Below are positions 26,094 through 51,889 of a stretch of DNA of 64,000 nt, piece by piece. Position 1 is the stretch's first letter; each line of letters opens with the position of its first letter. The DNA is taken from positions 62,001 to 126,000 of the forward strand of contig NZ_MBDL01000001.1 in NCBI RefSeq assembly GCF_001707755.1, read 5' to 3'. The position numbers were made by a program, and so were the translations under genes. The notes beneath the pieces were generated by a model. It was not told where the DNA came from and did no database searches. It saw nothing but the letters and a program-made list of their open reading frames with translations. The DNA comes from Acinetobacter celticus. Lineage in GTDB: Bacteria; Pseudomonadota; Gammaproteobacteria; Pseudomonadales; Moraxellaceae.

Positions 26094-27686
26094 TTAGTGT
26101 TCGCGTGTATTGTGGAATTGAATGTCTGGATAACGTTCCTGCATCAATTGTAAGTTCACACGACTTGGCGCCAAATACGTTAAATGACCACCACCATCGA
26201 CAGACAATTGGTCGTGGGCTTTTTTCTTAAATTCATTAAATTTCTTTTCATCATTGCAAGAAACCCAACGCACAGTATTAATATTTACAGGCTCGTAAAC
26301 ACAATCAACTTTGTATTCTTCTTTCAAGCGGTATGCCACCACTTCAAATTGAAGCACACCCACTGCACCAACAATTAAGTCATTGTTATGCTGTGGCATA
26401 AAGACCTGTGTTGCACCTTCTTCTGAAAGTTCTTTTAAGCCTTTTTGCAGTTGTTTCGACTTTAAAGGATCTTTCAAGCGAACACGGCGGAACATTTCTG
26501 GTGCAAAATGTGGAATACCCGTAAATTGCAACATTTCACCTGAAGTGAAAGTATCGCCAATTTGAATGGTGCCATGGTTATGTAAACCAATAATATCGCC
26601 CGGCCATGCTTCTTCTAAATGCTGACGGTCACCCGCCAAGAAGGTTAAGGCATCACTAATACGCACATCTTTTTCAAGACGTACATGCTTCATTTTCAGG
26701 CCTCGTTCATATTTGCCTGAACAAATTCGCATGAATGCGATACGGTCACGATGCTTTGGATCCATATTCGCTTGAATTTTAAACACAAAGCCCGTAAAGC
26801 CTTCTTCTGTGGCTTCAACAGTACGCACTGCTGTCGGATGTGCTTTTGGCGCAGGTGCATATTGACTAAAAGTATCTAATACATGGTCAACACCAAAGTT
26901 ACCTAAAGCTGTACCAAAGAGTACAGGCGTTTGACGACCTGACAAAAATTCTTCTTGGTCTAATGGCTCATTTGCCATTTGTACCAATTCTAATGATTCT
27001 TCAAATGCTGCCCAAGCCAACTCGCCCACTTTTTCACGTAAGTCAGGATAGTCATAGCCATCACGTACTTCCATTTCAGTAATGGTTGAACCAAAACCAG
27101 CTTTATAGACGTAAAATTTGCCTTCAATTAGGTTAAATACCCCTGCAAAATCACGACCTGTACCTAAAGGCCATGTTAAGGGTACACACTTAATTTTCAG
27201 AACATTTTCAATTTCATCTAAAAGTTCTAAAGGTTCACGAATTTCGCGATCCATTTTGTTTACAAATGAAATGATTGGCGTATCGCGCATACGACACACT
27301 TCCATCAATTTCACAGTACGCGCTTCGACCCCTTTTGCACCATCAATTACCATCAAAGCAGAGTCTACTGCCGTCAAGGTTCGATAAGTATCTTCAGAGA
27401 AATCTTCATGCCCTGGGGTGTCAAGCAGGTTAATCATTTTGTCTTTAAATGGAAATTGCATAACCGACGTGGTAATCGAAATACCCCGTTCTTTTTCCAT
27501 TTCCATCCAGTCTGATGTGGCTGCACGGTCTGACTTACGGCTTTTCACCATACCTGCAACTTGAATAGCTTTCCCCCATAACAGTAATTTCTCTGTCATG
27601 GTGGTTTTACCAGCATCGGGGTGGGAAATAATAGCGAATGTACGTCGCTGAGCGACCTGCGCCGCCAATTCTTGTTTGAAACTCAT
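26094..27686 (-). CDS. prfC: Peptide chain release factor 3
   Basis: GTPase that removes RF1/RF2 from the ribosome after termination. 530 residues, standard length. G1 SHPDAGKTT at 21-29, switch region [13 protein letters not shown]3 DTPGHEDF, G4 NKMDRE, then the RF3-specific domains II and III. AGGT lies eight bases before the ATG. Single gene with its own terminator. Confidence 0.97.
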
Positions 27687-48898: not shown

Positions 48899-49162
48899 TT
48901 AATTCATAGATCTTTTATAAAGTGGATCAGTCGTATTAAGTGCCGTTAATTCCAACATTCATTGGATGTACAGACCTCGCTTCATGTTCAAGTCGTAAAT
49001 AACCTTGGATAAAGTTTCATTTCCGTCTCAATTTTTTTAGCATGAAAATGCCAATGGACTTTATTTAATGTCATAACCGTCTGATCATACTAACAAATAT
49101 GAATCGTTAAATTTTCAACCATCAATATCAGACAAAAAAGGGACTATGCCAACACCAGAAAC
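48899..49162. other. Intergenic region, nothing recognised
   Basis: About 260 bases between the split lipoprotein and a convergent methyltransferase gene. No gene or strong hairpin seen. Confidence 0.4.
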
Positions 49163-49777
49163 TTACTGCTTTTGCGCCAACCACACCGTATGTCCTGTAC
49201 ACTCCACATCGTTAGCGACCATTTTTACCACATTAAAACCATACTGTTTTAATAAAACCCGATATTCATCTTGTGACAAACTGGCATGATATAAAGCATC
49301 ACCAAACATATCTCCCATTACTTCACCAGCCGTAGGCCCACTCGTGAACATTAAAGCCGTATTGGCTACTGAAAATTGAGCAAATTGCGCAAACATCTGT
49401 CGCTGATCATCTGGGGTTAAATGAAAAAAACTATCCCACGCCAAAATAGCATTAAACTTTTGATCTAATTCAACAGTTCGCATATCTGCTTGAACCCAAG
49501 TCTGCTTGGGAAAGTTTTTTTGCGCCATTGCAATCATCACATCTGAACTGTCTACACCTATAAGTGTATGCCCTTGCTGTATCAAATAATCTGCAATGGG
49601 TTTTGCCGAGCCACAACCTAAATCTAAAAGAGTCGAGTGCACAGGAATTAAACTAAGAAACAGGTCTAACCATGCCTTTTCATACAAAAAATCGCCACGT
49701 AATTCAGTCCATGCGCGCGCATGTTTTTTATAGATTTCAATAATATTTTGTGCCAGAGCAGCTTGATTTTCCATCAT
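49163..49777 (-). CDS. Class I SAM-dependent methyltransferase
   Basis: 204 residues. SAM motif LDLGCGSAKPIADYL, acidic second motif GVDSSDVMIAMA, and the post-motif QADMRTVELDQKF then AWDSFFHL. This is the Methyltransf_11/25 type of small-molecule methyltransferase; substrate unknown. Start ATG 49777 (or 49774). Probable -10 TATACT at 49801-49806 on the minus strand; its -35 falls in the octanucleotide repeat, so expression could depend on repeat number. Confidence 0.82.
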   Translation of the reverse strand: MMENQAALAQNIIEIYKKHARAWTELRGDFLYEKAWLDLFLSLIPVHSTLLDLGCGSAKPIADYLIQQGHTLIGVDSSDVMIAMAQKNFPKQTWVQADMRTVELDQKFNAILAWDSFFHLTPDDQRQMFAQFAQFSVANTALMFTSGPTAGEVMGDMFGDALYHASLSQDEYRVLLKQYGFNVVKMVANDVECTGHTVWLAQKQ

Positions 49778-49820
49778 CTAAAATTTCTTATCTTTTAACG
49801 AGTATACGCAAATTTAGATC

Positions 49821-49904
49821 ATGAGTTGATGAGTTGATGAGTTGATGAGTTGATGAGTTGATGAGTTGATGAGTTGATGAGTTGATGAGTTGATGAGTTG
49901 ATGA
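49821..49904. repeat. Octanucleotide tandem repeat, 10.5 copies
   Basis: Ten exact copies of ATGAGTTG (49821-49900) plus ATGA. It lies 43 bases upstream of the leftward methyltransferase gene and downstream of a small leftward membrane ORF. Perfect identity suggests slippage is active, so copy number probably varies between strains. Confidence 0.95.
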
Positions 49905-49936
49905 ACATATTATTTTTATAAAACCGAGTATCAAAA

Positions 49937-49967
49937 AAAGAAGAAAAGCTTATGCCTGTTCTTCTTT
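49937..49967 (-). terminator. Weak terminator-like hairpin after the 29-codon ORF
   Basis: On the minus strand AAAGAAGAA/TTCTTCTTT is a perfect 9-bp stem, followed by TTTT. The stem is AT-rich, so moderate strength. It overlaps the last codons of the small ORF. Confidence 0.5.
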
Positions 49968-50039
49968 CTGTCCGTACATCCACGTTGCGGCGATATATAC
50001 TGCAAAACCCACAACCATCAAAATACTGCTTACTGTCAT
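49950..50039 (-). CDS. Candidate 29-residue single-helix membrane protein
   Basis: ATG at 50039, TAA at 49950-49952. The protein is MTVSSILMVVGFAVYIAATW followed by MYGQKEEQA: a hydrophobic helix of about 20 residues, then a short charged tail, the layout of small bacterial membrane regulators or subunits. The ribosome site is weak (TAAAG). A GCATAATTG -10-like stretch lies upstream. Family not recognised. The ordered helix-then-charged-tail layout argues against chance, but it needs conservation to be accepted. Confidence 0.55.
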   Translation of the reverse strand: MTVSSILMVVGFAVYIAATWMYGQKEEQA

Positions 50040-50194
50040 CTTTATGACTCGCTGTTAATTTGTGACAATTATGCGAAAGTTTTATGACAGTTATATGACA
50101 ACCATAAATTTTATTAAAATTTATTTTAATAATATATATCAATAACTTATATAAATATAGATATTTAACTTTCAAAATTATCATATTATTTCTT

Positions 50195-50226
50195 ATCAAA
50201 TATGACACTTTCTTGTCATATTTGAT
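50195..50226. promoter_or_regulatory. Perfect 13-bp dyad upstream of fumarase gene
   Basis: ATCAAATATGACA (50195-50207)/TGTCATATTTGAT (50214-50226), centre CTTTCT. It is 140 bases upstream of fumA. The inner word TATGACA recurs at 50083-50089 and 50094-50100, giving four copies in about 140 bases, which looks like a regulator's binding sites. The rest of 50040-50365 is very AT-rich. Confidence 0.5.
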
Positions 50227-50365
50227 CCTGTTGCGACAACATTGACAGCCTACTTATATGCCGATATTAAACTTTCGCCCAAAGCCTTTTCAAAACGCCC
50301 ACAACTCGATCTTTTTGTCTTATAATTTAGCCCGCTAGCTATCAGCCCGCTCAAGAGATATTTGT

Positions 50366-51889
50366 ATGACAACTATTATCAAGCAAGACGACTTGATCAC
50401 ATCGGTAAAAGATGCGCTTCAGTTTATTTCTTACTATCATCCACAAGACTTCATCCAAGCGATGAGCCGTGCATATGATCGTGAAGAGAACAAAGCTGCT
50501 AAAGACGCCATCGCACAAATCTTAATTAATTCACGTATGTGTGCAGAAGGTCATCGCCCAATCTGTCAAGATACGGGAATTGTGAACGTCTTTCTTGAAG
50601 TGGGCTTAGACGTTAAATTTGATTTAACCCTCAGCCTAGACGATGCAATTAATGAAGGTGTTCGTCAAGGTTACCTTGAAAACTCAAACATTCTTCGTGC
50701 CTCTGTTTTAGCCGACCCTGCTTTTGGTCGTAAAAATACCAAAGACAACACGCCTGCAGTGATTCACTACAAACTCGTACCGGGTAATAAAGTTGATATT
50801 ACTGTTGCAGCCAAAGGTGGTGGTTCAGAAAACAAATCTAAACTGGCCATGCTCAATCCATCTGACTCAATTGTCGATTGGGTACTGAAAACTGTTCCGA
50901 CAATGGGTGCAGGTTGGTGTCCACCGGGTATGTTGGGTATTGGTATTGGTGGTACTGCTGAAAAAGCCATGATGCTTGCCAAAGAAGCACTCATGGAAGA
51001 AATCAACATGGACGAATTACTTCGTCGTGGACCTGAAAATAAAATTGAAGAACTCCGTATGGAAATCTTCGAAAAAGTAAATGCTTTGGGCATTGGTGCG
51101 CAAGGTCTTGGCGGTCTTACCACGGTTCTAGACATTAAAATTAAAGATTACCCATGTCATGCTGCTGGAAAACCAGTCGGTATGATTCCGAACTGTGCTG
51201 CAACGCGTCATGCACACTTCACATTAGATGGCTCAGGTATTGCACATATTCAAGCGCCTAAATTGTCTGACTACCCTGCTGTGACTTGGGATTCTTCAAG
51301 CTCTAAACGTGTAGACCTAGACAACATCACTCAAGAAGAAATGAACGCTTGGCAACCAGGCGATACCTTATTGCTTAACGGCACAATTTACACAGGTCGT
51401 GATGCGGCGCATAAACGTATGTGTGAAATGTTAGATAACGGTGAAGAACTTCCTGTTGATCTTAAAGGTAAATTCATTTACTACGTGGGTCCAGTCGATC
51501 CAATTGGTGATGAAGTGGTTGGTCCTGCAGGTCCAACAACGGCAACCCGTATGGACAAATTTACTCGTCAAGTTTTAGAAGCCACTGGCTTGTACGGCAT
51601 GATTGGTAAAGCAGACCGTGGTCCAACAGCCATAGAAGCAATCAAAGACAACAAAGCCACTTATTTAATGGCTGTTGGCGGTGCTGCTTACTTAGTTTCT
51701 AAAGCAGTACGTCAAGCTGAAGTCGTGGCTTTTGCTGACTTGGGTATGGAAGCCATCTACAAATTTGTGGTTGAAGATATGCCAGTATCAGTAGCGGTTG
51801 ACGTAAATGGTAGCTCTATTCACGCCACTGCACCAAAAATTTGGCAAGCCAAAATTGGTAAAATTCCAGTGATTGACGCTGCGGGTTAA
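50366..51889 (+). CDS. fumA: Class I fumarate hydratase (4Fe-4S)
   Basis: Interconverts fumarate and malate in the TCA cycle with an oxygen-sensitive iron-sulfur cluster. 507 residues, the two-domain class I form. Cluster Cys67 (RPICQDTG), Cys185 (GWCPPGMLG) and Cys277 (PNCAATRH) are present, as are GGGSENKSKL and the C-terminal domain (YYVGPVDPIG, GKADRGP). Strong start context and terminator. I use fumA as a class label; the enzyme could equally be named fumB. Confidence 0.95.
   Translation: MTTIIKQDDLITSVKDALQFISYYHPQDFIQAMSRAYDREENKAAKDAIAQILINSRMCAEGHRPICQDTGIVNVFLEVGLDVKFDLTLSLDDAINEGVRQGYLENSNILRASVLADPAFGRKNTKDNTPAVIHYKLVPGNKVDITVAAKGGGSENKSKLAMLNPSDSIVDWVLKTVPTMGAGWCPPGMLGIGIGGTAEKAMMLAKEALMEEINMDELLRRGPENKIEELRMEIFEKVNALGIGAQGLGGLTTVLDIKIKDYPCHAAGKPVGMIPNCAATRHAHFTLDGSGIAHIQAPKLSDYPAVTWDSSSSKRVDLDNITQEEMNAWQPGDTLLLNGTIYTGRDAAHKRMCEMLDNGEELPVDLKGKFIYYVGPVDPIGDEVVGPAGPTTATRMDKFTRQVLEATGLYGMIGKADRGPTAIEAIKDNKATYLMAVGGAAYLVSKAVRQAEVVAFADLGMEAIYKFVVEDMPVSVAVDVNGSSIHATAPKIWQAKIGKIPVIDAAG

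Follow-up and report, generated by a model that had tools for sequence, protein, structure and literature searches.

What, if anything, is encoded in the gap between fumA and a methyltransferase gene in a 64-kb stretch of Acinetobacter DNA (hereafter, the window)? On the minus strand of this gap, a frame of 29 codons plus a stop runs from an ATG at 50039 to a TAA at 49950 (49950-50039) and translates to MTVSSILMVVGFAVYIAATWMYGQKEEQA, a predicted single-helix membrane protein for which orthologues and purifying selection can be adduced. The frame lies alone between fumA, the divergent neighbour that encodes a class I fumarate hydratase (50366-51889, plus strand), and the gene for a SAM-dependent methyltransferase, which follows downstream on the same strand (49163-49777, minus strand). 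A first-pass annotation made from the letters alone had picked out this leftward frame, its hydrophobic helix, a relative of the -10 sequence TATAAT upstream, a terminator-like hairpin at the end and both neighbours, and all of these are borne out by the analysis that follows. What that annotation overlooked is a PHO box, from which the gene gains a physiological context.

The frame, its product and its terminator

Beyond a single hydrophobic helix about 17-20 residues in length the product comprises little, as judged from hydropathy and from the shortest relatives, which are 24 residues long; this is the make-up of a small bitopic membrane protein, and the protein is predicted to insert in the inner membrane. 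The best 17-residue Kyte-Doolittle mean is 2.11; among the 279 ATG frames in the window that encode 24-50 aa, 8 attain this value, the 29-residue frame counted, so that hydrophobicity alone is weak evidence. Substitution patterns, in turn, can be followed in 48 distinct sequences over 23 codons, where pN/pS is 0.31 overall and 0.083 over the IAATWxYGQ stretch, at a pS of 0.60, and where third positions account for 52% of the differences. Silent sites outside the terminator arm described below are free to vary (pS 0.58-0.60). Of the 48 sequences, 33 and 14 have stops in the other two forward frames, and 26, 44 and 27 have them in the three antisense frames. Four residues, F12, W20, Y22 and G23, do not vary among 32 aligned members. 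Judging by these sequence comparisons, the 29-residue frame is almost certainly a real protein-coding gene.

At its end, the gene runs into an intrinsic terminator hairpin (49935-49969, minus strand), identified by folding and alignment, with a folding energy of -13.7 kcal/mol and a z of -3.1 in the window, that leads into a T tract; in the five relatives folded, z lies between -3.3 and -4.9. Simple scans at the locus reported neither a terminator nor a -10/-35 promoter. The 5' arm of the hairpin is formed by the last codons of the gene, those for KEDQA (KEEQA here), and across the three K/Q-E-D codons synonymous change is almost nil (pS 0.011), whereas diverged relatives terminate at YGKS or YGHK and have no such tail. 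Given this near-zero pS and the absence of the tail in diverged relatives, the tail is probably kept partly for the sake of the terminator and seems to be secondary. The first-pass annotation had counted the polar KEEQA tail as part of the layout, which the diverged relatives do not share and in which the codons in question are an arm of the terminator. Directly downstream of the gene, a perfect 8-bp tandem repeat of ATGAGTTG is present in 10.5 copies (window 49821-49904). In some relatives (loci L135, L136 and L140) the same place is occupied by another 8-bp array, AAATCTTC, and because different arrays occur at one place, the site seems prone to acquiring short tandem repeats.

The PHO box and the upstream region

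Could the promoter region, then, indicate when such a protein is made? When 25 intergenic regions are aligned, conservation directly upstream of the gene is highest in a block that reads TTGTCATATAACTGTCATAAAACTTTCGCATAAT in the window. Upstream of the gene there is a PHO box, TTGTCATATAACTGTCAT (50084-50101, minus strand), an exact match to the pattern of two TGTCAT half-sites 11 bp apart, and 10 nt past the box, close to the distance of about 10 nt that is expected for a -10 element, there is CATAAT (50068-50073, minus strand), the ATAAT of which is invariant in 25 of the 25 aligned regions. Boxes were scored against the 14-position E. coli PHO-box consensus CTGTCATNNNNCTGTCAT, which others have applied to olsB of Acinetobacter (PMC11828411). 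The site in the window scores 13/14 and is the sole site with this score among the segments scanned in the 64 kb. Only 4 of 850 background segments reach at least 12, two of them overlapping on the PHO box (13) and two on a site at 27582 (12), while 16 reach 11 and 84 reach 10; in the 159 AT-rich segments, scores of at least 11 occur solely on the PHO-box site. The box is present in all 57 distinct upstream regions of the gene at a score of at least 11/14 (13 in 35 regions, 12 in 21 and 11 in one), and in all 57 its distance from the ATG is 59-66 nt. The box score at the fumA site has to be regarded as post hoc, since the box was first noticed by eye.

Comparison with phosphate genes is of uneven value. 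The phoB regions of the genus score 12 in 24 cases of 25 and 13 in the remaining one; the pstS regions that were taken as a positive control (n=29) score just 10-12, several of them at differing places, so that pstS is a weak control, with scores little above background. In the genome from which the window comes, the exact half-site pattern occurs three times, the site of the small gene included, and neither of the other two occurrences precedes an obvious phosphate gene; in this genome the phoB promoter matches the pattern at two mismatches, and allowing up to 2 mismatches yields 64 sites, compared with 32 for a reversed control pattern. On the strength of the box and the spacing of the -10 element, the small gene is very probably a member of the Pho regulon, and we would expect it to be controlled by PhoB in vivo.

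A genus-wide search with a PHO-box pattern starting with C gave matches in 3 of 173 genomes, one of them before ppk; this pattern missed the gene's own site because the first base of that site is T. The ppk match, a PHO box before the polyphosphate kinase gene in genome G015 (L195, 1502-1689), suggests that polyphosphate is under PhoB control in that species. Two further Acinetobacter genomes have PHO-box-like sites (L194, 1502-1541, and L193, 1485-1525) near the gene for an uncharacterised protein of 252 aa that ends in a Ser/Cys/Gly-rich stretch and whose L194 version has no Pfam match.

The same intergenic region holds a perfect 13-bp inverted repeat, ATCAAATATGACA-N6-TGTCATATTTGAT (50195-50226), a possible second operator. 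A related dyad, with up to 3 substitutions and a spacer of 4-9, occurs in 28 of the 57 upstream regions, whereas 20 x 57 base-shuffled regions contain none. In its own genome, the 26-bp dyad core is matched exactly at this place only. The second-best match has 2 mismatches and precedes the start region of a gene by about 219 bp; the first 441 residues of the product of this gene, an incomplete stretch, match the phosphocholine-specific phospholipase C model TIGR03396 (E 2.4e-158; 528.6 bits, the cut-off being 580.25). A third match to the dyad core falls inside a coding frame. Phospholipase C is a phosphate-scavenging enzyme in Pseudomonas; on the phospholipase C side, the dyad is not accompanied by a direct-repeat PHO box (best 10/14). 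The dyad hints at a shared second regulator or at an unusual arrangement of PhoB. Separately, the fumA leader TTATAATTTAGCCCGCTAGCTATCAGCCCGCTCAAGAGAT (window 50320-50365), which contains two AGCCCGCT repeats, is almost invariant in the 25 aligned regions and may be a target of RNA-level control.

Distribution, relocation and decay of the gene

A single-sequence search of 299 genomes of the family yielded 48 with a match at E<0.001, the own genome counted, all of them from the genus of the window, and diverged copies take the two ranks that follow, at E about 0.002. When a profile was run against 175 genomes of the genus, 73 matched at E<1e-6; to these are added three diverged copies (G028, G286 and G325), all three of which encode MMTAVLLTIGFVAYTGAVWHYGHK, and one copy (G107) whose start is intact and then gives way to a run of N, for a total of 77 of 175. 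The three diverged copies have E values of about 4e-4 with the genus profile, and with a wider profile G028 and G286 reach 5.5e-11 and 5.7e-11, respectively. The first-pass annotation had held that conservation with synonymous substitutions would support the frame, and this is what is seen, in about 77 of 175 genomes. The gene is absent from about 98 of the 175 Acinetobacter genomes though phoB is present in 41 of the 41 genus genomes searched, and it is therefore an accessory rather than a core gene.

The 45 loci found in a named collection are all titled Acinetobacter and include A. lwoffii, A. schindleri, A. indicus, A. variabilis, A. bouvetii, A. tandoii, A. terrae, A. portensis and others; fumA divergently adjoins the gene in 44 of the 45, and a relative of the methyltransferase lies inside the fetched flank in 19. 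A genome has a single strong match as a rule, the few exceptions including G301 and G340 with two each, and the site is fixed in most. In G221 (C1:119969-128700), the gene and fumA are about 7 kb apart, compared with about 330 bp elsewhere, which suggests an insertion between them. The second copy in G301 (L262, 943-1011) is shortened and lacks a start and a PHO box (best 9/14), keeps the terminator and the 8-bp repeats, and lies near a copy of the methyltransferase gene.

Beyond the genus, the search becomes barren. An order-level profile search of 390 genomes gave two matches from the genus itself and three others that are very weak (E 0.007-0.0099), and a family-level search of 298 genomes with the wider profile gave no convincing relative outside the genus: of 14 marginal matches in as many genomes (4 from the own genus and 10 from other genera), none supports a relative, as the best upstream box of each scores 8-11/14. 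The small protein had no match in a plasmid collection or among PDB sequences, and scans of 32 members against Pfam (best E 0.012, Pkr1) and NCBIfam (best E 0.27) gave no convincing family. A likeness to CcoQ/FixQ, considered for the W-x-Y-G-x-K motif, was dropped because the Pfam scan contains no such match. Nor is the protein described in the titles and abstract openings of open-licence PMC literature on Acinetobacter phosphate starvation, PhoB and the Pho regulon, and small membrane proteins. The first-pass claim that the protein had been missed by annotation thus holds with respect to Pfam and NCBIfam models, the scope of the test, none of which covers it.

Does the box follow the gene when the gene is found elsewhere? 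In G101 and G340, a diverged copy has glnA as its neighbour (identified by eye in translation; G340 is partly N), and in G028, G286 and G325 between the genes for a beta-lactamase-fold hydrolase and a LysR regulator (likewise named by eye). The diverged copies are 24 residues long, and in all five genomes a 12-13/14 box is present 65-81 nt upstream of the matched frame, a prediction that was passed at loci examined after the finding at the fumA site; the gene with its promoter box is therefore found at three different genomic sites. The reverse case, that of loss, was addressed by searching 60 fumA upstream regions from genomes without a strong profile match with a nucleotide profile of the transcript. 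This profile recovered the N-cut copy of G107 along with decayed copies in G163, G324 and G215 (E 1e-20 to 6e-16) and a faint remnant in G323 (E 0.0017), and the other 55 of the 60 regions, one of which is that of G325 with its diverged copy elsewhere, gave no match at E up to 10. The decayed copies carry stops or shifts, and their best boxes score 10/14 (G163), 8/14 (G324), 10/14 (G215) and 7/14 (the G323 remnant), compared with 11-13 in front of intact genes. Both the diverged loci and the decayed copies test the box independently of, and later than, the by-eye finding, and we conclude that, in the genomes inspected, gene and box have been gained, moved and lost together.

A possible role in the phosphate response

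With its conservation and the PHO box upstream, the membrane protein probably constitutes a small, new component of the phosphate response in Acinetobacter, and the idea of a small membrane subunit or regulator, put forward in the first pass, gains support from the conservation of the protein, the synonymous change and the decayed copies in some genomes that lack the gene. The gene, the selection acting on it, the PHO box and the co-inheritance of gene and box have all been computed, and the scenario that we favour, with reasonable though not strong confidence, builds on them: the product would be a bitopic protein of the inner membrane, induced by PhoB, with a larger membrane protein of the phosphate-starvation response as its binding partner. 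Under phosphate scarcity, phosphorylated PhoB would bind the PHO box at 50084-50101 and give rise to a short monocistronic transcript ending at the hairpin at 49935-49969; the helix would insert in the membrane, and the nearly invariant C-terminal half (F..YIAATWxYG) would bind its partner, for which a phosphate transporter, the PhoR sensor or a transport-linked complex are candidates, and change the stability or activity of that partner. That the protein acts by binding a larger membrane protein is likely; the identity of the partner and the sign of the effect are guesses, and it is rather doubtful that the target is PhoR or Pst. Against the scenario speaks the fact that no linked partner gene is evident, the constant neighbour being fumA (44 of 45 named loci), for which, to our knowledge, no phosphate role is known.

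A more specific form of this explanation makes the protein a feedback regulator of PhoR, or of the Pst/PhoU complex, damping or sharpening signalling in the way MgrB acts on PhoQ. A tiny membrane protein as the target of a response regulator fits such a role, and PhoR-binding small proteins are known, namely DUF1127 in Agrobacterium and YjiS of E. coli (PMC12501420); yet our protein matches no Pfam or NCBIfam model and its gene is absent from more than half of a genus in which phoB was found wherever it was searched for, so that we consider this form possible and hardly probable. Still more tentative is the thought of a genus-specific membrane feedback element, whose W-x-Y-G helix would bind PhoR/Pst and set the strength and duration of the phosphate-starvation response, with gain and loss of the gene tuning the response between species.

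Size and hydrophobicity would also be compatible with the membrane toxin of a type I toxin-antitoxin system or with a growth-arrest peptide of phosphate starvation, and 2 of 32 members match Pfam Ibs_toxin very weakly (best E 0.088). This reading is improbable given a single strong match per genome, a few exceptions apart, at a site fixed in most, and a nearly invariant W-x-Y-G that suggests specific binding and not bulk membrane damage; moreover, an Rfam scan of 49000-51000 found no RNA family at E<=1, which bears on antisense RNAs of known families only. The same null result in the Rfam scan counts against the view that the transcript is a small RNA, or a dual-function one, in which the frame is incidental. 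A short transcript with a promoter and a terminator of its own does resemble an sRNA gene, and the last codons are constrained at the nucleotide level, as seen in the pS of the K/Q-E-D codons; however, silent sites elsewhere vary while the residues of IAATWxYGQ are fixed, and each other frame is broken by stops in 14 to 44 of the 48 sequences, which makes this view very improbable. That the frame arose by chance in the AT-rich gap beside fumA, as the 8 equally hydrophobic small frames out of 279 might have allowed, is already refuted by its presence in 73 of 175 genomes, by synonymous change and by three genomic sites with the promoter box.

For the PhoB-induced, partner-binding protein that we prefer, MgtS is, by analogy, the clearest precedent. 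MgtS is under PhoPQ control and responds to low Mg2+, whereas low phosphate is proposed as the signal for the small protein, which matches no family model. MgrB, a longer protein, has cysteines and a periplasmic part, in contrast to the small Acinetobacter protein with its 24-residue minimal form and no soluble domain; KdpF and CydX are single-helix subunits that pack against a large membrane complex; and DUF1127 proteins are basic and soluble. The likeness to MgtS (31 aa) is that of a tiny membrane protein made on depletion of a nutrient (Mg2+) that binds transporters, MgtS being thought to inhibit PitA and stabilising MgtA (PMC10710835), and the likeness to MgrB is that of a small protein made by a response regulator, in the latter case for negative feedback on PhoPQ (PMC7808668). 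As a small single helix that would pack against a large complex, the protein also resembles KdpF and CydX. AcrZ, which makes up a single-helix belt around AcrB (PMC10710835), is of the same type; unlike these three, our protein has no Pfam or NCBIfam match, and its gene is not beside an evident partner gene. DUF1127 proteins such as YjiS, acting on PhoR, are small proteins tied to phosphate control as well (PMC12501420), but scanning 32 members against Pfam gave no DUF1127 match.

The small protein is a new family among stress-induced small membrane proteins, one for which there is no Pfam or NCBIfam model. A family of this kind is hereby added to a well-studied regulon, with the testable prediction that the gene is induced through PhoB at low phosphate. 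In more general terms, a protein as short as 24-29 residues can be placed in context by a promoter motif together with codon evolution. In A. baumannii, phosphate limitation leads to PhoR-dependent lipid changes, in a study whose title ties them to antibiotic tolerance (PMC11828411), and because of this link a small membrane modulator of the phosphate response would be of practical interest.
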